This document shows positions 13,099-27,807 of a stretch of 53,907 nucleotides of DNA, piece by piece (position 1 is the first letter of the stretch; the number at the start of each line of letters is the position of its first letter). The stretch lies in NCBI GenBank assembly GCA_021806565.1, contig JAJZXK010000009.1:1-53907 (forward strand), read 5' to 3'. The stretch comes from Bacillota bacterium. Its GTDB lineage: Bacteria > Bacillota > Sulfobacillia > RBS10-35 > JAJYVN01. Position numbers and translations under genes: made by a program. The notes under the pieces are model-generated. The model ran no database searches. It had not been told where the DNA came from and worked only from the letters and a program-made list of their open reading frames with translations.

Positions 13099-13392
13099 AT
13101 GCCAGAGGGACCGGTTACCGAGAGCCGCTACCGGCGCGACAACACGGCGCTCCTGGGGCGCCTGCGCAAGATCGAGGGGCAGGTCCGCGGCGTGCAGCGC
13201 ATGGTGGAGGAGGACCGCTACTGCGTCGACGTTCTCGTGCAGTTGGCGGCGATCCGCTCGGCGGTCAGTGCCGTCGGGCATTCTCTGCTGGAGAGTCACG
13301 TCCGCGGGTGTGTGGCCGGGGCCCTGCAGAGCGGGGACGGTGAGCGCGCCGTCACGGAACTGCTTGAAGTCATCGCTCAGTTCTCCCGTTGA
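13099..13392 (+). CDS. csoR: Copper-sensing repressor CsoR
   Basis: A 97-residue four-helix DNA-binding protein. The Cu(I) ligand set C42-H67-C71 (YCVDVL and HVRGC) has the spacing of M. tuberculosis CsoR (Cys, His 25 later, Cys 4 later). The DUF156 core [22 protein letters not shown] is intact. ATG 13099 has AGGTGG close by; an ATG at 13084 in the same frame overlaps the operator and lacks a ribosome site. Cu(I) binding releases the operator and induces copA and copZ downstream. Confidence 0.93.
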
Positions 13393-13408: not shown

Positions 13409-15913
13409 ATGAGCGTCACGGAGACGGAGAGCGAGGTCCAGGCGCGAGGCGAGGGTAGGAGCGCCGCGGCCACGCAGGCTGTGCTGCCGATCGCGGGGAT
13501 GACGTGCGCCAACTGCGCGGCCCGCATCGAGCGCGGGCTGCGCCGCACCGCCGGCGTGGTGGAGGCCAGCGTCAACCTGGCCAGCGGGCGGGCCACCGTA
13601 GCCTTCGATCCGGCCAAGGTGGGCCTGCCGGCGCTTTTGGGCGGCATCCGCGAACTGGGTTACGACGTGCCCGAGGCCACGACCCGCCTGGCGATCGAGG
13701 GCATCGTCTGCTCCTCCTGCGTGCAGCGGCTGGAACGCGCGCTCGCGGCCGTGCCCGGGGTGCTGGGAGCGACGGTGAACCTGTCCACGGGCCAGGCGCT
13801 GGTGCGGCACCCGGCCGGTGTGGTCGACGCCGCGGCGCTGGTCCAGGCCGTGGAGGCGGCGGGCTACCACGCGCAGCCGCTGGACGAAGCCGGTGGCGAC
13901 GACGGCGGGGCCGCGACGCGCGCACGGGAGGTCCGCCACTGGCGCGACCGGGTGCTGCTCGGCGCCGGGCTGTCCCTGCCGCTGCTCGCCGGCATGGTGG
14001 CACACCTCCTGGCCCCCGGCGGCCGCCTGACCGCGGTGCTGGAGGACGGGTGGCTGGGACTGGCCCTGGCCACGCCGGTGCAGTTCGTCGCGGGCTGGAC
14101 GTTCTACCGGGACTCGTACTTCAACCTGCGCACGCGCAACGCCAACATGTCCGTGCTCGTTGCGCTGGGCACCTCCGCCGCGTACCTCTACAGCGTGGCT
14201 GGGGTGCTGTTTGGCCGCCGGGCCGGGATCACCGGCACCTATTTCGAGACCAGCGCCCTGCTGATCACCCTGGTCCTGCTCGGCAAGTACTTGGAGGCCA
14301 TCGCCAAGGGCCAGACCTCCGCGGCCATCGGCAAGCTCCTGGGCCTTCAGGCGAAGACGGCGCGGGTCCTGCGGGACGGCAAGCCCGAGGACATCCCGCT
14401 CTCCGCGGTGCGGGTCGGGGACCTGGTCGTCGTGAGGCCCGGAGAGAAGGTGCCGGTCGACGGCGAGGTGGTGGAGGGGAGTTCGGCCGTCGACGAGTCG
14501 ATGCTCACCGGCGAGAGCCTGCCGGTCGACAAGACGGTGGGCGACGCCGTCGTCGGCGGCAGCCTCAACACCTCGGGTTCGTTCACCTTCCGCACGGCGC
14601 GCGTCGGCCGGGACACGGTTCTGGCACAGATCGTGCGGGCGGTGGAGCAGGCCCAGGGCAGCAAGGCGCCGATCCAGCGCATCGCCGACGTCATCTCCAA
14701 CTACTTCGTCCCGACGGTCATCGGCGTCGCGCTGGTGACGTTCCTCGGCTGGTACCTCGGGACGGGGAACTTCACGGCGGCGCTGCTCTCGGCCACCGCC
14801 GTCCTGGTCGTCTCCTGCCCCTGTGCCCTCGGCCTGGCCACGCCGACCGCGATTATGGTGGGCACGGGACGCGGGGCGGAGAACGGGATCCTGTTCCGGG
14901 GCGGCGAGCACCTGGAGGCCGCCGGCCGGATCACGGCGGTCGCCTTCGACAAGACGGGGACGATCACGCACGGGCAGCCCACGGTCACGGACGTCGTCCC
15001 GCTCGGCGCGGCCAACCGGGCAGATGTGCTTCAGATCGCGGCCGCCGTGGAGGGGCGCTCCGAGCACCCCGTCGGCGGGGCGATCGTGGAGGCGGGCGAG
15101 CGGGAGCAGTTGGCCGGCCTGCCGGTCGAAGCAGTGGAGGCCCTGGCCGGTCACGGCATCCGCGCCCGGGTGGCCGGGCGTCCCGTCCTGATCGGCAATG
15201 CCCGCCTGATGGCGCGGGAAGGGGTCGACTCCGCTCCGGCGGCGGAGACCCTGCAGCGCTTGGAGGCGGAGGGCAAGACCGCCGTGCTGGTGGCCGAAGG
15301 GGACCGGGTCACCGGCGTGGTGGCCGTGGCGGACACGGTGCGGCCGGAGGCCCGTGCGGCCGTGGCCGCGCTCCGCGGCATGGGCATCGAGGTGTGGATG
15401 ATCACGGGGGACAACCGCCGGACCGCGGACGCCATCGCCGCCGAAGTGGGGATCGCTCCCGACCACGTCCTGGCCGAAGTGCTGCCCGAGGACAAGGCCG
15501 CCAAGATGCGGGAGCTCAAGCGTGACGGTGCCCGCGTGGCCATGGTCGGAGACGGCATCAACGACGCGCCGGCACTGGCCACGGCGGACGTCAGCCTGGC
15601 CATGGGCACCGGCACCGACGTGGCGATGGAGACCGCGGACATCACGCTGATGCGGGGCGATCTGCGGGGCGTCGTCGCCGCGATCGACCTGAGCCGCGCC
15701 ACCCTGGGCAAGATCCGTCAGAACCTGTTCTGGGCCCTAGTCTACAACTCCCTCGGCATCCCGGTCGCGGCGCTCGGGCACCTGAGTCCCATCATCGCCG
15801 GGGCTGCGATGGCGCTCAGTTCGGTCTCCGTGACGACCAGCTCGACCCTATTGAAGAGGTTCCGGCCCCTCCGGCGCTTCGAGGGCGCGGCGGCGGCCGG
15901 GCCGGCCCGATGA
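13409..15913 (+). CDS. copA: Cu(I)-exporting P1B-type ATPase
   Basis: An 834-residue copper exporter. Two N-terminal heavy-metal domains have MTCANC (C33, C36) and VCSSC (C101, C104). Membrane metal site CPC at 470-472, phosphorylation site DKTGT at 514-518, SEHPVG nucleotide-binding motif and [10 protein letters not shown] hinge follow. The last helices carry [13 protein letters not shown] and [12 protein letters not shown], the N/Y/M/S pattern of Cu(I) (P1B-1) pumps. It starts 16 bp after csoR and is controlled with it. Confidence 0.95.
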
Positions 15914-15991: not shown

Positions 15992-16204
15992 ATGACGACG
16001 CGGACGTTCGCGGTGCAGGGCATGACCTGCGCGCACTGCCAGGCGGCGGTGACCAAGGCGCTCAAGGGGGTGCCGGGGGTGGCTTCGGTCGAGGTCGACC
16101 TTCAGGGTAAGCAGGCCAAGGTGGGCTACGAGGCGGAGAAGGTGACCGTCGAGCACCTTTCCAAGGCGGTGGAGGAGGCCGGGTACACGCTGGCGTCGGC
16201 GTAG
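15992..16204 (+). CDS. copZ: Copper chaperone CopZ
   Basis: A 70-residue cytosolic Atx1-like chaperone with the Cu(I) site GMTCAHC near the N-terminus and a complete heavy-metal-associated fold. It hands copper to the N-terminal domains of CopA or to CsoR. The ATG at 15992 follows GGAGGGGTGAGATCC; a longer frame from 15968 lacks a site. It lies 78 bp after copA. Confidence 0.93.
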   Translation: MTTRTFAVQGMTCAHCQAAVTKALKGVPGVASVEVDLQGKQAKVGYEAEKVTVEHLSKAVEEAGYTLASA

Positions 16205-19692: not shown

Positions 19693-21741
19693 TTGAGTGC
19701 CCTGTCTTGGCGGAGAGCACAACGCTGTGTCGGGCGCTGGCCTTGGACGGGTGCCCTGGCGCTGCTGTGCGGCCTTGCCCTCGTGGTGGGCCTGGCAGCC
19801 ACCGCCTCGGCCCATGCGTTCCTGGCCGAAAGTTCACCGGTTGCGGGTGCGCGGCTGGCGGCCAGTCCGACGGCATTGACCCTCAGCTTCACGGAACCCG
19901 TCACCGCCCAGGGCGAGCGTGTCACGGTGAAGACGGTGTCGGGCCGGTCGGTGGCGGTCGGGCCCACGCCCCGGTCCGCGGGCGGGGCGGTGGTCACCGT
20001 CCCGCTGCCGCCGTTGGCCCAAGGCATCTACATCGTGGACTGGCAGGTGGTGTCCGCCGAGGACGGTCATTACACGTCCGGTGAGCTCGCCTTCGCCTTG
20101 GGCAGCGGGGGCGCGTTGCCGGCTGTGGTCTCTGCGTCCGCCAACATCGCTTGGCCGGAGGCCGTCGCCAGTTGGCTGGTCCTGGCCGGTCTGGCCCTCG
20201 CGGCGGGAGGCCTGTTCGGGGAGGATGTCGTCTGGGGTCCGTCGCGGCCGGCGGGCTGGTCTCCGCGGTCCCTCGCCCCGACCGGCCCCATCCTGGCCGC
20301 GCTCCTCGGCAGCGCGGGGCTCTTCCTCCTGAACGTTCGCGCGCTCAGCCGGGCCGCCCCGCCCGGACACGCGGGCGCCGTGTCGGCGGCGGCCCTGCGG
20401 TCCCCCGCCGGGGACCTCGCCCTAGCCGCGATCGCGCTGATTGTCTACGCACTGGCCGTGCTCGGCCTGTCCCGCATGCGGCGTCCCGCCCTGTTCGCGC
20501 TCACCGGCGCGATGGTCGCTGTCGGGTTGCGCACCCACCCCGCCGCGACACCCGACTGGTGGGGCCGAGCCGCCATCGTGGTCCACGTCGTGCTGGGGCT
20601 GCTCTGGGTGGGCGTTCTGGCACACCTCGTGCTCGCTTGGCGCAAGAGCCAGGTGTCCCCGCAGGTCGCAGTCGAGGTGGTGCGGCGCTACGCCCGGCTG
20701 GCGGGTTGGATGGTGGCCTTGGTCCTGGTCAGCGGCGGCGCCGCGGCCCTCACGCAACTGCACGGTTGGGCCCAGTTGTGGATCACGCTCTACGGGAACC
20801 TGCTCGTCGCCAAGCTGCTGCTGGTGGCATTGGCCCTGGTATTCGCCCTGCTGGCCCACCGGATCACGTTTTCGCGGCGGCCCGCGGTCCCGGTGGGAGC
20901 ACTCGGCCGCCGCATGCGTGCCGAGGCGGGGGTTTTGGTGATGGTCCTCGGGGCCGCCGCCCTGCTGGCCAATGCCCCGCCGCCCGCGCCCACGGTGTCG
21001 GCCGCGGCGCTGCTGGGACCGCCGCCACCGGTGGGCCCGTCTCTGACCCTGGCCGGCCAGGCCGGTTGGCTGGAGGTATACCTGACCGCCAGTTCTGCCG
21101 AACTCTTGCTGCAGGTGATCGGTCCTACCGGCAATGGAAGCGCCCCGGCCGGCGTGCGGCTGCCGTCGGAGGACCACCCGCATGGAAACGCGATCTTCGT
21201 CCAGGCCCCCGGCCGAAGCGACGCCGTCGGACTCGATCCGCGCCGGTGCGGGGCCGGGTGCTTCAGCGTTCCGTACAAATGGTCCTCCGGCACCACACAC
21301 GTGACTTTGCAGGTCGCGGCGAAGGGGTGGAGCGGTGGAGATCTGACCTTCGACGTGCCCTGGCCGCCGCTGCCGCCAGATCCCGGGCTGCTGGCACACG
21401 TGGTGGCCGCCATGACCACCCAGCCGTCTCTTCAGATGGACGAGCGCGTGGTTAGCGGCCCGGGCGCGGCGTCGCGCGACAGCGGCGCCCAGTCGGGTGC
21501 CCGGTTCATGGCCAGTGAACCGTACGGGCCGCAGACCGCCGATGTCCGCCCGCTCCCGGGCGGCTCGCTGGTGATCTGGGAACCGGACTCGTGGATCTGG
21601 GTGCGGGTATGGCTGGATCCCCAACGCCGTATCCGCCGCGAGGTGGTTATCGATCCGGGACACCTGATCCAAAGGACGTTTACGTATCCTGAGGGCGCGG
21701 CCGCCCCGTATCCGCCGTCAGCGGTCTCCTCCTCGGGTTGA
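19693..21741 (+). CDS. CopC-CopD fusion copper-resistance protein
   Basis: A 682-residue fusion. Residues 1-40 are an export signal ending TASA, after which the mature chain begins HAFLAESSP; that N-terminal His is the first Cu(II) ligand of CopC domains. The CopC domain (about 41-135) includes SAEDGHYTSGELAFAL. Eight or so helices of a CopD domain follow (about 155-445). A C-terminal extracytoplasmic region (about 460-682) is longer than usual. TTG 19693 is preceded by GGGAGG at 7-8 bp; a TTG at 19597 has no site. CopC/CopD proteins bind periplasmic or surface copper and move it across the membrane. Confidence 0.88.
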   Translation: MSALSWRRAQRCVGRWPWTGALALLCGLALVVGLAATASAHAFLAESSPVAGARLAASPTALTLSFTEPVTAQGERVTVKTVSGRSVAVGPTPRSAGGAVVTVPLPPLAQGIYIVDWQVVSAEDGHYTSGELAFALGSGGALPAVVSASANIAWPEAVASWLVLAGLALAAGGLFGEDVVWGPSRPAGWSPRSLAPTGPILAALLGSAGLFLLNVRALSRAAPPGHAGAVSAAALRSPAGDLALAAIALIVYALAVLGLSRMRRPALFALTGAMVAVGLRTHPAATPDWWGRAAIVVHVVLGLLWVGVLAHLVLAWRKSQVSPQVAVEVVRRYARLAGWMVALVLVSGGAAALTQLHGWAQLWITLYGNLLVAKLLLVALALVFALLAHRITFSRRPAVPVGALGRRMRAEAGVLVMVLGAAALLANAPPPAPTVSAAALLGPPPPVGPSLTLAGQAGWLEVYLTASSAELLLQVIGPTGNGSAPAGVRLPSEDHPHGNAIFVQAPGRSDAVGLDPRRCGAGCFSVPYKWSSGTTHVTLQVAAKGWSGGDLTFDVPWPPLPPDPGLLAHVVAAMTTQPSLQMDERVVSGPGAASRDSGAQSGARFMASEPYGPQTADVRPLPGGSLVIWEPDSWIWVRVWLDPQRRIRREVVIDPGHLIQRTFTYPEGAAAPYPPSAVSSSG

Positions 21742-22302: not shown

Positions 22303-23385
22303 TCACCCGGTCGTTCCGAAGCGGGGGAGCCGCACCACGACGCGCGTTCCGTGGTCGCTGGTGAGCGAAAGGGTACCGCCGTGCGCCCGCACCCACGTCT
22401 CCGCGATGGCGAGGCCGAGGCCGGAGCCGGCCCCACGGCCGCGCGAGGGGTCGCCACGGACGAACGGCTCGGTGACGTGAGGGAGGATCTCAGGCGGGAT
22501 ACCGGGACCGTCGTCGACGACGGCCCACTCGGCGATGCCGCCATCCAGCCGCAGCCGCAAGCGGACATGCCCACCCGCCGGCACATGGCGGATGGCGTTG
22601 GAGAGCAGGTTGGTCAGCACGGCGTCCATCCGGTCGGGGTCCACGGTCGCCTGCCCCTCCGGCGGTACCTCGCAGGTCAAGTGGACGCCTTTAGCGGTCG
22701 CCAGCGGCTCAAAGCGCTCGGCGAGGGCGCGAGTCTGCGAAGCCACGTCGGTGGAGCGCAGCGCCAACGGCAGCGCCCCGGCGCGGGCACTGGCCAGGGT
22801 CAGCAGGTCCTCGACCAGGCGGATCAGGCGCCCGGCCTCGCCGTGAAGTGAGGCGATGCGCTCCGGTTCTGGCGGGACGACCCCCGCGAGCATGCCCTCC
22901 AGGTTGGCCTGCAAGGCCGTCAACGGCGTCCGCAGGTCGTGCGCGACCGCCGCCAGGAACGTCTCGCGCTGCCGGTCGGACTCGCTCAGCGTCTCCGCCA
23001 TCCGGTTCAGCGCGTACGCCAGTTCCCCGAGTTCGTCGCTGGCCTGGATGGAGATGCGGCCGCCCAGGTCGCCGCGGGCGATGCGGCGCGACAGGGCGAC
23101 GAAGGGCTCGAGTCGGACACTTAGCGTCTGCGCCAGAGCCCGGGAGAGCCACCAGGAGAGCCCCAGCGCGCCAGCGCCCGCCAACACGCTGCCTAAGACG
23201 ATGGCGGTGACCAGCGCGCGCTCGAAGACAGGTGCGGCCTGGTGAAGCACCGGCGGCGGCAGCAGACGCAAAAAGCCCCGGTCGAGGCCCAGTCCGGCCA
23301 TCAGCACGGTTCCGAGCAGGGTTAACGCAGAGGCCACCGCCGCCACGAGCAGGAGCGCCTGGCGGAACCGGCGCTGCACGCTCAC
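22303..23385 (-). CDS. Sensor histidine kinase
   Basis: A 360-residue membrane kinase: two helices (about 8-30 and 60-80) flank a short extracytoplasmic loop. A HAMP domain follows (about 82-135), then the H-box AAVAHDLRTPLTAL with phospho-acceptor H149, the N-box NLLSNAIRHVP, and ATP-lid motifs DDGPGIP and GSGLGLAI. It is translated after its response regulator with a 4-bp overlap. The ~30-residue sensor loop has no metal-ligand cluster, but the divergent genes encode a cupredoxin and SHOCT proteins, suggesting an envelope or copper signal. Confidence 0.92.
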   Translation of the reverse strand: MSVQRRFRQALLLVAAVASALTLLGTVLMAGLGLDRGFLRLLPPPVLHQAAPVFERALVTAIVLGSVLAGAGALGLSWWLSRALAQTLSVRLEPFVALSRRIARGDLGGRISIQASDELGELAYALNRMAETLSESDRQRETFLAAVAHDLRTPLTALQANLEGMLAGVVPPEPERIASLHGEAGRLIRLVEDLLTLASARAGALPLALRSTDVASQTRALAERFEPLATAKGVHLTCEVPPEGQATVDPDRMDAVLTNLLSNAIRHVPAGGHVRLRLRLDGGIAEWAVVDDGPGIPPEILPHVTEPFVRGDPSRGRGAGSGLGLAIAETWVRAHGGTLSLTSDHGTRVVVRLPRFGTTG

Positions 23386-24089
23386 GGCCGTTCCGCGGCC
23401 GGAGGCAGGAAACGATAGCCTACGCCGCGCACCGTTTCGATGAACCTGGGCGCGTCCGGATCGTCGCCGAGTTTTTTACGAATGTGGCCGACGTGGACGT
23501 CGATGACACGTTCGTAGCCTTCATAGCCGTCGCCCCAGACCGCAGCGACGAGTTGCCCGCGGGTAAACACCCGGCCCGGATGCCGCGCCAGGGAGTGCAG
23601 CAGGCTGAACTCCAGGGCCGTCAGTTCGGCGGGCGTCCCATCCACCTCGACGCGGCGGGCGCCGGCATCGACGACCAGGGACCCCAGGCGCAGCACGTCG
23701 CCAGCGCTCGCGGCGGTGCCTGCCGCGCCACGGGGCCGGCGCAACAGCGCCTGACAGCGGGCCAGAAGTTCGCCGGGACTGAACGGCTTTACAAGATAGT
23801 CGTCGGCGCCGCGGGTGAGCCCGAGGATCCGCTCCGCTTCGGTGCCGCGGCCGGTGAGCATCAGGACGTACACGTCCGAGCGCCGCCGGATGGCCGCGAG
23901 GACGTCCCAGCCGCTTTTGTCCGGCAGCATGATGTCCAGGACGATCACGTCGGGTTCGGTCTCCTCCAGATCGGCGAGGCCGGCCGCCGCCGTCTCGGCT
24001 CCCGCCACGGTCCATCCCGCGCTTTCGCCGTAGGCCTGGATGACCCCGCGCACCTCGGCGTCGTCATCGATGACCAGAAGCCGTGGCAT
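23382..24089 (-). CDS. OmpR/PhoB-family response regulator
   Basis: A 235-residue regulator. The receiver domain has D8-D9, phospho-acceptor D52 (VLDIMLP) and K101 (LVKPFSPGELLAR). The winged-helix output domain (about 130-228) ends with HIRKKLGDDPDAPRFIETVRGVGYRF. Start ATG 24089 was chosen because MPRLLVIDDD is the normal receiver N-terminus; it has a G-rich upstream site. It likely binds the 11/22-bp spaced AACTTYA repeats in the divergent promoter at 24173 and in the one at 25331. Confidence 0.93.
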   Translation of the reverse strand: MPRLLVIDDDAEVRGVIQAYGESAGWTVAGAETAAAGLADLEETEPDVIVLDIMLPDKSGWDVLAAIRRRSDVYVLMLTGRGTEAERILGLTRGADDYLVKPFSPGELLARCQALLRRPRGAAGTAASAGDVLRLGSLVVDAGARRVEVDGTPAELTALEFSLLHSLARHPGRVFTRGQLVAAVWGDGYEGYERVIDVHVGHIRKKLGDDPDAPRFIETVRGVGYRFLPPAAERP

Positions 24090-24256: not shown

Positions 24257-24517
24257 ATGATGGGGTTCGGCTGCTGCGGGGGGATGGTTACGCTGATGCT
24301 CCTGGCCGGCCTCTTCTGGATCGTGCTGCTGGTGGGCGTCGGCATCCTGCTCTATGCGCTGGTGACGCGGTGGCAGGGCGGTCAGGGCAGGACGGCGGCC
24401 AGCCCCGATGATCCGCTGGCGCTGCTCAAGATCCGCTATGCGCGCGGCGAGATCACCCGCGAGCAGTATCAGCAGATGCTGCACGACCTGACCGATCGGG
24501 GGGCGGACGCGGGATGA
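24257..24517 (+). CDS. SHOCT-domain small membrane protein
   Basis: An 86-residue protein with an N-terminal GFGCCGGM sequence, one membrane helix (about 9-36) and a C-terminal SHOCT motif (ALLKIRYARGEITREQYQQM). SHOCT domains are short helical modules thought to mediate oligomerisation or interaction; no enzymatic role is known. Ribosome site ACAGGAGGCC. Its stop overlaps the cupredoxin start (ATGA). Confidence 0.82.
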   Translation: MMGFGCCGGMVTLMLLAGLFWIVLLVGVGILLYALVTRWQGGQGRTAASPDDPLALLKIRYARGEITREQYQQMLHDLTDRGADAG

Positions 24518-25305
24518 CGGTTCGAAGTGCGGTGTGGACCGGACTGGCCCTGATGGCGATCGGCATCGGCGGGCTCACCTTCACGGGCGTGTCCGGCGCG
24601 ACCGGGTTACGCGTGCCCTGGACACAAGCCCGTGATGCCGAAGGCATGATGAATCCTGGCGCCGGTGCAGGGGCAATGATGGGCGGCGAGAGCGGCGGGT
24701 ACGGCAGCATGATGGGCGGCAGCGCCGCCGGGATGATGGGTGGCACCGGTGCTGGGGCGATGGGTTCGGGGATGATGGATGCGCTGCCCGGCCAGATGAT
24801 GGGTACGACGATGGCCGGGGTGACCGGCCAGAACGTGACGCGGGCCGAGGCGGAGAGCCTCGGTGCCGCCGTCCCGACGGGGGCGACCGCCAACCGGGCG
24901 GCCAACAGACTGGTCTTTACGACCAACGACGTCCGGATGACGGTTCTGGCCAGCCCGGCTGATGGGCCGGACATGACCTTCCGCATCGCGGGCATGGCCG
25001 ACCCGACGGTGGTCGTCCCGAAAGGTGCCACTGTGAACGTGCAGTTCGTCAACGCCGACGCCGACACGGCGCACGGCTGGCTCCTTACGCCGGCGCAGGC
25101 CAGCCTTCCCTACATGGCGATGATGGCCGCCCCGCCGGCCTTTGCCGGCGCCTTCGCCATGCCCCTGGGGAATCCCACCGCCGCGGGGATGCCGGCCGAA
25201 ACCATCAGCTTCACCGCCAGCCAGCCCGGCCAGTACACCTATCTCTGCCCGGTCCCGGGGCACGCGCAGAAAGGGATGCACGGCGGCTTCGAGGTGGCTG
25301 CCTGA
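24514..25305 (+). CDS. Exported Met-rich cupredoxin (sulfocyanin/auracyanin-like)
   Basis: A 263-residue blue-copper-type protein. A hydrophobic signal or anchor (about 7-30) is followed by a Met/Gly-rich linker (about 43-105, many GMMGG repeats) and a cupredoxin domain (about 130-263). Type 1 copper ligands can be read as the His of DTAHGWLL plus C, H and M of YLCPVPGHAQKGMHG. Such proteins carry single electrons outside the membrane; the Met-rich part may bind Cu(I). It is co-translated with the SHOCT gene. Confidence 0.82.
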   Translation: MTVRSAVWTGLALMAIGIGGLTFTGVSGATGLRVPWTQARDAEGMMNPGAGAGAMMGGESGGYGSMMGGSAAGMMGGTGAGAMGSGMMDALPGQMMGTTMAGVTGQNVTRAEAESLGAAVPTGATANRAANRLVFTTNDVRMTVLASPADGPDMTFRIAGMADPTVVVPKGATVNVQFVNADADTAHGWLLTPAQASLPYMAMMAAPPAFAGAFAMPLGNPTAAGMPAETISFTASQPGQYTYLCPVPGHAQKGMHGGFEVAA

Positions 25306-25404: not shown

Positions 25405-25719
25405 GTGGCGCTTGGGACACTCGTGAGGTACCTGCCGGTGCTGGCCTGCCCGGCGATGATGATCTTCTGCATGCGTGGGATGGGCGGCGGCAAGCAGGCC
25501 GGCCAGCAGGCTCCGGCGCAGACACCGGAGGAGCGCCGGGAGGCCCTGCAGTTGGAGATGCAACAACTGGACAGGGCGCGGCTGGCGCGCGGCGAGATGA
25601 CGTTGGAGGAGTTCGTCCGTCTCCACGGTCCAGAGGCGCCCGAGCCGGAAGCCGTGCAAGACACCCGCCCGGTTCGGCTGGGGGCGGCACCCGCACGGCG
25701 TCGGACGCGCGCCGGGTAA
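25405..25719 (+). CDS. SHOCT-like membrane protein
   Basis: A 104-residue protein with a short hydrophobic N-terminus containing two Cys and several Met (LACPAMMIFCMRGMGGG), a spacer, and a SHOCT-type helix pair (ARLARGEMTLEEFVRL). Start GTG 25405 follows a G-rich site. It lies behind the phased repeats, so it is probably under the same regulator as the cupredoxin. Confidence 0.65.
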   Translation: MALGTLVRYLPVLACPAMMIFCMRGMGGGKQAGQQAPAQTPEERREALQLEMQQLDRARLARGEMTLEEFVRLHGPEAPEPEAVQDTRPVRLGAAPARRRTRAG

Positions 25720-25741: not shown

Positions 25742-25954
25742 ATGGGATGCTGCGGAGGCGGTCTGTTCGGGGGCCAGCGTACGCCTAACGAGGCGCCCCA
25801 GACCGACGCCAACGACCTTCAGGCCATCCTGAAGGAACGTCTGGCCCGCGGCGAGATTACCCCGGACGAGTACGAGCGGATCCGGGCAATCCTGGCGGAG
25901 GAGCCGCCCCGGGCGGCGGCGCCGACTCGGCCGTGGCAAATGGCCGGCGGATAG
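25742..25954 (+). CDS. Small SHOCT protein with N-terminal CC motif
   Basis: A 70-residue soluble protein beginning MGCCGGGLFGG, followed by a SHOCT motif (LKERLARGEITPDEYERIRAIL). Ribosome site AAAGGGAGGGACC. The double Cys near the start could bind metal or be modified. It is 22 bp after the preceding SHOCT gene, probably in one transcript. Confidence 0.7.
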   Translation: MGCCGGGLFGGQRTPNEAPQTDANDLQAILKERLARGEITPDEYERIRAILAEEPPRAAAPTRPWQMAGG

Positions 25955-26051
25955 GGCTTTCCGGTCGTTATGGTGTGCGAGGTCAACAGACGCGCGCAGC
26001 GGAGCCGGGGGAAATGCCCGGCTTCGAACGTTGTGTGAGGAGGATCGCCGG

Positions 26052-26684
26052 GTGCCGTCGGAAGGAACGGGGCCATCGAGGCGGGCAAAAGGCTATTCTG
26101 ACCCAAGGCGACGCACCAGCGGCGCTATGGCCTGGGTGGCGGGTCTCGTGGGACTTCTGCTGGTCGCCGGATTGGTGTTCGCAGTGGTCCGGCATCCGGC
26201 GCCCGGCGCTGGATCGGGGCCGGGTCTAAACGTGGGCGCGGCGGCGCCCACGCTGAGCCTCCCCTCGACCACCGGCTCGCAGATCTCGCTGTCCGCGTAC
26301 AACGGCAAGAAAGTCGTCCTGTATTTCTACGAGGGCGCCGGCTGAGGGGCGTGCCAAGAGCAGCTCGTGGAGCTGCAGAACAATCTGGAGACGATTCACT
26401 CCGACGGTGGTGAGGTACTGGCCGCCAGCACGGACACCGCCTCGGTGAGCATGTCACTGGCCAAGCAGATGAACCTGGGGTTCCCCATCCTCAACGACCA
26501 GGGTGGGCGCCTGGGCTCAGCGTTCGGCATCTTCGGCTTGACCGGTGGGATGAACATGGGCGCCGTCGACCGGCATTCGGTCTTCGTGATCAACAGACAG
26601 GGGAAGGTCAGTTGGAAGCAGCTCTCGCTGGACCAGATGCACGTGCCGGTGGCCGACATCCTGTCCGCGCTCAGGAGCGCGTGA
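26052..26684 (+). CDS. Peroxiredoxin/thioredoxin-fold selenoprotein (in-frame UGA = Sec98)
   Basis: Read through the TGA at 26343-26345, the frame gives a 210-residue protein: membrane anchor at about 27-46, then an AhpC/TSA-like redoxin domain (about 60-210). The UGA falls in YFYEGAG-U-GAC-QEQL, where relatives have a CxxC active site, so the product would have U98-x-x-C101. A perfect 7-bp hairpin follows 14 nt after the UGA. The frame remains open to 26684 and the GTG start has AGGAGG at 8 bp. Downstream genes encode a CxxC thioredoxin-like protein and a CcdA. If UGA were a plain stop, only 97 residues without the active site would be made. Confidence 0.75.
26343..26376 (+). promoter_or_regulatory. 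UGA codon with bacterial SECIS-like hairpin
   Basis: After the UGA (26343-26345) and a 14-nt spacer, GCAGCTC (26360-26366) pairs perfectly with GAGCTGC (26370-26376) around a GTG loop. Known bacterial SECIS elements lie within the coding sequence just downstream of UGA, with an apical loop roughly 16-37 nt away and a G in the first two loop positions. Here the loop starts 21 nt after the UGA and its first base is G. Confidence 0.7.
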
Positions 26685-26686
26685 GC

Positions 26687-26947
26687 ATGCGGGAGATCGA
26701 GGTAGTGCTGCTCACCGCCGAGGCCTGCCACTTCTGCACCCATGCCAAGCAGGTCCTGAGCCGCCTGGCGGAACGGTACCCGCTGACGGTCTCCGAGATC
26801 CCCTGGACCTCGGACGAGGGCCGCCGGCTGGCGGAACGGGACGGCATCGCCTTTCCCCCCGGCATTTACCTGGACGGATCGTTCTTCGGGTACGGCCGAC
26901 TGTCGGAAGGCAAGCTCCAGAAGTGGTTGCGGGAGCGGCGGGCATGA
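26687..26947 (+). CDS. Thioredoxin/glutaredoxin-like protein
   Basis: An 86-residue thioredoxin-fold protein without signal peptide. The redox motif CHFC is in EACHFCTHAKQVL, and the fold ends with PPGIYLDGSFFGYGRLSEGKL, including the cis-proline. It begins 2 bp after the selenoprotein stop and overlaps the ccdA copy downstream by 4 bp. In this arrangement it could pass electrons to CcdA on the cytoplasmic side. GTG 26681 is an alternative start. Confidence 0.85.
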   Translation: MREIEVVLLTAEACHFCTHAKQVLSRLAERYPLTVSEIPWTSDEGRRLAERDGIAFPPGIYLDGSFFGYGRLSEGKLQKWLRERRA

Positions 26948-27807
26948 ATGCACTGGTCTACGGTAGCTCCCTGGCCGCGGCGTTCCTCGGAGGCATCCTC
27001 GCCCTGTTTGCGCCCTGCTGCGTCGTGTCCCTGCTACCGACCTTCGTGGCGGCTTCGCTGCAGCAGAAGCGGCTCCGGCTGATCGTCAGCACCGTGGTCT
27101 ACGCGGCGGGCGTGGCCGTGGTGCTGTTGCCCATCGTCCTGGGGATCGGTGCGCTGGGACAACTGCTCGGCAGGTTCCACCGCGAGGTCTTCCTCGTCGT
27201 GGGCCTGTTCCTGGTCGGGCTTGGACTCTACGCGCTGAGCGGCCGCGGGTTCATGCTGCCGATGCCGATGATCCGCGCCAGGGCGGGAAATGGCACCGGC
27301 GGTATCTTTGTCCTCGGAGTGCTCTCCGGGATGGCCAGTTCCTGCTGTGCGCCAGTGCTGGTGGGCGTCGTGGCAATGTCCGCGCTGGCCTCGTCGGTTA
27401 TCGGCGCCCTCGGCCTCGGGCTGGCCTATGTCTTCGGCATGGTGTTCCCGTTGCTGGTGGCTACGTTGCTCTGGGAGGGGCTCCGCCTGGACCAGCGGCG
27501 ACTGTTCGCCGGTGGTTCCAGGCGCGTGCATCTCGGCGGGTGGTCCGTCGGCTGGACCGACCTGGTTGCGGGCGGCATGTTCCTACTGATGGGTGTGTTG
27601 TCCCTCTACCTGGCGGTGACGGGACAGGGCACCTACACGCCGGACTGGCTCGTCGCGTTCAACCGCTGGGCGACGGGACAGGCGGGCGACCTGGCAACCG
27701 CGCTGCGCGGCGTGCCGACGTCCCTCCAGGCCCTAGTGCTGCTTGCGCTGGCGGCGGCGGTGGCGTGGGCGGTGTACGGCGCCTGGCGCCGCCCGTCCGA
27801 ACGGTGA
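26944..27807 (+). CDS. CcdA/DsbD-type transmembrane electron carrier (second copy)
   Basis: A 287-residue membrane protein with about seven helices. The redox motifs are LFAPCCVVSLLP (helix 1) and SSCCAPVLVGV (helix 4), each with a double Cys rather than a single one. Overlap with the thioredoxin-like gene (ATGA) implies coupled translation. It would carry electrons across the membrane to the selenoprotein or to the TlpA-propeller fusion downstream. It is quite different from the ccdA at 8473. Confidence 0.88.
   Translation: MNALVYGSSLAAAFLGGILALFAPCCVVSLLPTFVAASLQQKRLRLIVSTVVYAAGVAVVLLPIVLGIGALGQLLGRFHREVFLVVGLFLVGLGLYALSGRGFMLPMPMIRARAGNGTGGIFVLGVLSGMASSCCAPVLVGVVAMSALASSVIGALGLGLAYVFGMVFPLLVATLLWEGLRLDQRRLFAGGSRRVHLGGWSVGWTDLVAGGMFLLMGVLSLYLAVTGQGTYTPDWLVAFNRWATGQAGDLATALRGVPTSLQALVLLALAAAVAWAVYGAWRRPSER

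Follow-up and report, generated by a model that had tools for sequence, protein, structure and literature searches.

A predicted membrane-anchored UxxC selenoprotein of Bacillota, encoded among copper-handling genes

In the stretch of DNA analysed here (53,907 nucleotides, referred to below as the window), we find a gene that very probably, at a rough probability of 0.97, encodes a genuine selenoprotein, with an in-frame TGA as the codon for selenocysteine 98 (Sec98). The assignment comes from comparison of sequences: homologues have either TGA or a cysteine codon at the same column, the genome carries the machinery for selenocysteine insertion, and a conserved SECIS-like hairpin follows the codon. 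The product is predicted to be a membrane-anchored protein of the peroxiredoxin fold with a Sec98-x-x-Cys101 motif, and the gene stands in an operon with a small CHFC protein and a divergent CcdA, inside a region of copper-handling genes. Positions of all features discussed are given in Table 1.

Table 1. Features of the window around the selenoprotein gene
Feature	Position	Strand	Basis
CsoR-type metal-sensing repressor	13099..13392	+	profile match
Cu(I)-exporting P1B ATPase CopA (CPC, YN, MxxSS motifs)	13409..15913	+	profile match, motifs
CopZ-like copper chaperone (HMA domain)	15992..16204	+	profile match
CopC-CopD fusion	19783..21741	+	profile match
Sensor histidine kinase, conserved in neighbourhood	22303..23385	-	profile match, other genomes
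OmpR-type response regulator, conserved in neighbourhood	23382..24089	-	profile match, other genomes
SHOCT-domain small membrane protein, conserved in neighbourhood	24284..24517	+	profile match, other genomes
Rusticyanin-like cupredoxin, C...H...M copper-ligand pattern	24514..25305	+	profile match; near selenoprotein gene in other genomes
DUF2933-like small protein, conserved in G008	25405..25719	+	profile match
SHOCT-domain small protein (MGCCGGG)	25742..25954	+	profile match
Ribosome-binding site GAGGAGG, 8 nt 5' of GTG start	26037..26043	+	direct reading
Predicted selenoprotein gene (N-terminal TM anchor, redoxin AhpC/TSA domain, Sec98-x-x-Cys101)	26052..26684	+	profile matches; homologues with TGA or Cys at codon 98
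Predicted TM helix, residues 24-47, following positively charged N-terminus	26121..26192	+	AlphaFold2 model, hydrophobic sequence
In-frame TGA, predicted selenocysteine codon 98	26343..26345	+	TGA in the same column in G006, G482, G480, G478, G477, G504, G465
SECIS core hairpin GCAGCTC-GTG-GAGCTGC, 7-bp stem	26360..26376	+	folding; covariation in eight TGA members
Small glutaredoxin/thioredoxin-like CHFC protein without signal sequence, proposed cytoplasmic electron donor	26687..26947	+	profile and fold matches
Divergent CcdA-like membrane thiol carrier; each of the two CcdA active-site positions holds a Cys pair (APCC, SSCC)	26944..27807	+	match to 5vkv

An earlier note on this DNA, made from the letters alone, had pointed to the TGA, to the frame that stays open beyond it and to a strong ribosome-binding site upstream. 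All three are seen directly in the sequence; the open frame after the TGA is 112 codons long and ends at a TGA stop, not 113 as the note had counted. Once the codon is counted as an amino acid, a Pfam profile search matches the product to PF00578 (E 8e-26) and PF08534, while none of the NCBIfam cut-offs is reached. When all TGAs of the window were screened for coding signal both before and after the codon, seven were listed, and codon 98 is the only one of them that falls within a homologous domain, the remaining ones being gene ends, intergenic, or opposite a gene.

The earlier note had also proposed a look at the corresponding column in homologues, and it turns out to hold either U (TGA) or C. 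Seven further genomes of the class have TGA there, at 30-49% identity (G006, G482, G480, G478, G477, G504 and the outlier G465). Cys (TGT) is found in the 70% orthologue of G008, which is the same sequence as L018 from a Bacillota MAG, and in a Metabacillus plasmid protein. Over the 112 downstream codons, the window genome (G000) and G008 differ at 11, 10 and 38 sites in codon positions 1, 2 and 3; the differences are mostly in third positions, and the C-terminal half is therefore under protein-level selection. Suspicion of a sequencing error or a pseudogene might arise from the window being part of a MAG (213 contigs, 92.6% complete, 3.9% contamination), but such an explanation is untenable and was rejected, because the TGA column is shared with seven other assemblies, the codons behind it are under selection and two close homologues carry Cys at the site; we give it next to no weight. 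A contig scan recovered the Cys orthologue L018 alone, the viral contigs searched held no relative, the phage records searched gave distant matches only, and in a 400-genome sample of the phylum everything besides the window was a distant Prx match. The protein of the outlier genome (L080, G465 C403:4875-5474) is itself a distant redoxin, with an HMGTGUPPC and an MYVP motif and its TGA at the same column.

The genes for selenocysteine synthesis and insertion, which the earlier note had suggested looking for, were all found in the window genome: selA (517 bits), selB (324 bits), tRNA-Sec (75 bits, anticodon TCA, main copy on contig C47) and selD, for which there are three matches, each with one in-frame TGA; in the best of them (L057) the TGA context was read, GAGUACK. 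It needs to be mentioned that three selD copies (L057 at C200:28262, L058 at C136:1494 and L059 at C182:3756) are unusual in one genome and may reflect binning. A second tRNA-Sec-like gene (L010, C73:19-110, 50 bits, anticodon TCA) lies at a contig edge, and may be a duplicated or a decayed copy or stem from contamination. Among the TGA relatives, selA is present in all and selB in all except G465, where no match was obtained at E 1e-60 although selA is there. A genome-wide reassignment of TGA (for example to Trp), or readthrough that does without selenium, would likewise let translation continue past the codon, but is hardly conceivable and was rejected: TGA terminates the selenoprotein gene and its neighbours, homologues have Cys and not Trp at the column, and the full Sec machinery is present.

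The SECIS-like hairpin reported in the earlier note is present as well. It starts 14 nt, and the G of its loop lies 21 nt, after the UGA, which agrees with the definition of a bacterial SECIS element as a hairpin directly downstream of the UGA whose small apical loop contains a G (PMC1088965). In the alignment of the eight TGA members, 92.9% of the stem cells are paired, as against at most 53.6% in slid registers, and three of the seven pairs are changed on both sides, so that the register is conserved and the changes are compensatory. The Cys orthologue of G008 has lost one pair through GAG -> GAA, and the other non-Sec relatives retain 3-5 of the 7. In the window alone, the folding energy of the hairpin is not significant against synonymous-codon shuffles, and because of this the claim rests on the alignment. 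Synonymous-codon controls gave P 0.04-0.5 when each sequence was taken singly, and the six lineages combined gave a Fisher P of about 0.004, an approximate value that ignores shared ancestry. The modest significance of the single sequences is explained by the overlap of the stem with a conserved QLVELQ peptide. Judged from its place and its covariation, the conserved hairpin 3' of codon 98 is a bacterial SECIS element.

As for the protein, both the TM anchor and the peroxiredoxin fold are predictions of the model. In the AlphaFold2 structure the redoxin domain has pLDDT mostly above 90, and Sec98 stands immediately before a helix of residues 99-110. The nearest solved folds are BCP/PrxQ/AhpE, with a TM-score by target length mostly of 0.82-0.89, and ResA comes next. 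When aligned with peroxiredoxins, Cys101 falls on the peroxidatic Cys, Sec98 on the Thr of PxxxTxxC, Glu94 on the Pro and His175 on the Arg, and thus the catalytic set of a peroxidase (PxxxTxxC plus Arg) is not kept. Two descriptions in the earlier note need to be narrowed in this light. The placing of the TGA at the first Cys of a CxxC motif holds for the homologues, which have Cys or TGA there, while against peroxiredoxins the column is that of the Thr; and the term "peroxiredoxin-like" is right for the fold alone, since the catalytic Pro, Thr and Arg of the peroxidases have given way to other residues. His175 is present in all TGA members and in the near Cys relatives and is absent from G418 and G419, and Met196 (of an MxVP motif) has the same distribution.

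The tight packing with a thioredoxin-like and a CcdA gene, also claimed beforehand, is real: the CHFC gene lies directly 3' of the selenoprotein gene, and the CcdA gene comes next. The best solved match of the latter product is the CcdA structure 5vkv (E 6.6e-9), with an alignment that runs the length of the protein and a Cys at each active site, while a Pfam search with it gave no match, DsbD_TM included. At both sites CC pairs replace the single Cys of CcdA, a feature conserved in four genomes. Comparison shows the predicted operon to be conserved, as the selenoprotein-CHFC-CcdA order is retained in G006, G008 and G482. No adjoining CHFC or CcdA partner was seen in G480, G478 and G504, and for this reason the relay is not universal; the locus of G477 is truncated at a contig edge. 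An operon that combines a CHFC protein with CcdA suggests a relay of electrons from the cytoplasm to the selenoprotein.

The copper-island setting, which the earlier note had considered unusual for a selenoenzyme, is likewise real and conserved across related loci. CsoR/CopA genes are found near the family gene in G006, G482, G008 and G504, and a rusticyanin-like cupredoxin, SHOCT proteins and a two-component regulator in G480, G478, G477, G504 and G008; the window carries both sets. Copper genes (CopA, CsoR or cupredoxin) lie close to every one of the six related TGA loci whose flanks are long enough, which come from four lineages; G465 was left out of the count for too little flanking sequence. 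Copper linkage of the predicted selenoprotein family is thus shown by comparison of gene neighbourhoods. In G480, G478 and G477 (L074-L076) a gene that looks by eye like a methyltransferase stands between the cupredoxin and the selenoprotein genes. Apart from the copper island, the window segment 39787-51515 looks by eye like a mobile element, with a single-strand-binding-protein-like gene and other minus-strand genes.

Taken together, these features point to a plausible mode of action. Directed by the downstream hairpin, SelB and tRNA-Sec would insert selenocysteine at UGA 98, and a single TM helix would hold the protein in the cytoplasmic membrane, with the redoxin domain on the outer side. 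The pair Sec98-Gly-Ala-Cys101 would form a thiol-disulfide oxidoreductase site, in which the selenolate may attack a substrate disulfide or an oxidised site and Cys101 may then resolve the selenenylsulfide. Re-reduction would run from the cytoplasmic CHFC glutaredoxin-like protein through the divergent CcdA in the membrane to the selenoprotein. Its likely task would be to keep extracytoplasmic copper proteins, for instance the neighbouring rusticyanin-like cupredoxin, reduced at their thiol or copper-site ligands; alternatively, it may repair thiols oxidised by copper. We consider the oxidoreductase role with its operon-encoded relay to be probable, and are less confident of any substrate named for it.

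Two other functions were weighed. On one hand, the protein might be a selenocysteine peroxidase that removes copper-generated hydroperoxides, with either Sec98 or Cys101 in the peroxidatic role. This idea draws on the fold, on the best profile matches, which are peroxiredoxins of the BCP/PrxQ/AhpE kinds, and on the position of Cys101, but a thiol-disulfide oxidoreductase is likelier, because Glu94, Sec98 and His175 stand where a peroxidase has its Pro, Thr and Arg. Coupling to CcdA is moreover typical of oxidoreductases, and the literature separates UxxC Prx-like selenoproteins from TxxU peroxidases (PMC1088965, PMC9312934); we thus regard a peroxidase as unlikely.

On the other hand, the protein might be a selenium-based counterpart of Sco, with a putative copper site of Sec98, Cys101 and the invariant His175, which would deliver copper to the rusticyanin-like cupredoxin, or act on it by redox chemistry, during its maturation, fed with electrons by its own CHFC-CcdA pair. 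Sco proteins use a redoxin fold with two Cys and one His. The reading also draws on the copper genes at all the countable loci, the retention of His175 and Met196 described above, and weak SCO1-SenC matches in 2 of 12 members (best E 0.0013). Against it, the Sco motif is CxxxC and not UxxC, and a search with the window protein gave no match to SCO1-SenC (PF02630), only the His being in place. This seems quite improbable to us. If true, it would connect selenocysteine directly, in function, with the handling of copper, and a contact of Sec98 with copper would be a new role of selenium in metal homeostasis.

The thiol-disulfide oxidoreductase favoured here belongs to a kind of selenoprotein that is not itself new, and of the earlier note's claim of a new selenoprotein it is the subfamily that stands. 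UxxC Prx-like proteins have been known since 2005, and are catalogued as distinct from TxxU peroxiredoxins (PMC1088965, PMC9312934, PMC13188914). Because they are already catalogued, what is new is the membrane-anchored, CcdA-coupled, copper-linked subfamily, not the kind; our search of the literature for selenoproteins together with copper resistance, cupredoxins and CcdA found no paper that makes the link. Selenoprotein genes are readily mistaken for truncated ones in annotation. Across a class of Bacillota, the family links the use of selenocysteine to surroundings of copper-handling genes, and its operon offers a testable trans-membrane route for electrons to a selenoenzyme.

Among known systems, Bcp/PrxQ and AhpE peroxiredoxins, the TxxU forms included, share with the window protein the fold and the place of Cys101 at the peroxidatic position, but the latter has other residues for the catalytic Pro, Thr and Arg, with Sec in the Thr column. 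Two Bcp/PrxQ-type genes of the same order (L027 in G004 C482 and L028 in G005 C341) have TGA at the peroxidatic Cys (DTGGU) and are TxxU selenoperoxiredoxins. Sco/SenC chaperones resemble the window protein in the membrane-anchored redoxin fold, in two chalcogen residues with a conserved pre-strand His and in the copper context; they differ in their CxxxC motif, and in the Pfam SCO1-SenC match that the window protein lacks. ResA/TlpA proteins with CcdA are likewise membrane-anchored redoxins with a C/UxxC motif, a CcdA partner and a matching fold, whereas the window protein is nearer to Prx in sequence, is without the WCxxC signature, has Sec as the first residue and lies in a copper, not a cytochrome c, neighbourhood. 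In definition there is likeness to the Prx-like UxxC/UxxU selenoproteins (PMC1088965, PMC2398784, PMC9312934, PMC13188914), thiol:disulfide oxidoreductases defined by a PF00578 domain and by a UxxC motif where the peroxidases have TxxU (PMC1088965). The window protein has both, and it shares with them the AhpC/TSA-type domain, Cys homologues and a SECIS element just after the UGA. From these proteins, as they are described (e.g. WP_010940744.1), the window subfamily is set apart by its predicted membrane anchor, its copper-adjacent genes, its frequent operon with CcdA and the CHFC protein, and its E94 and H175.
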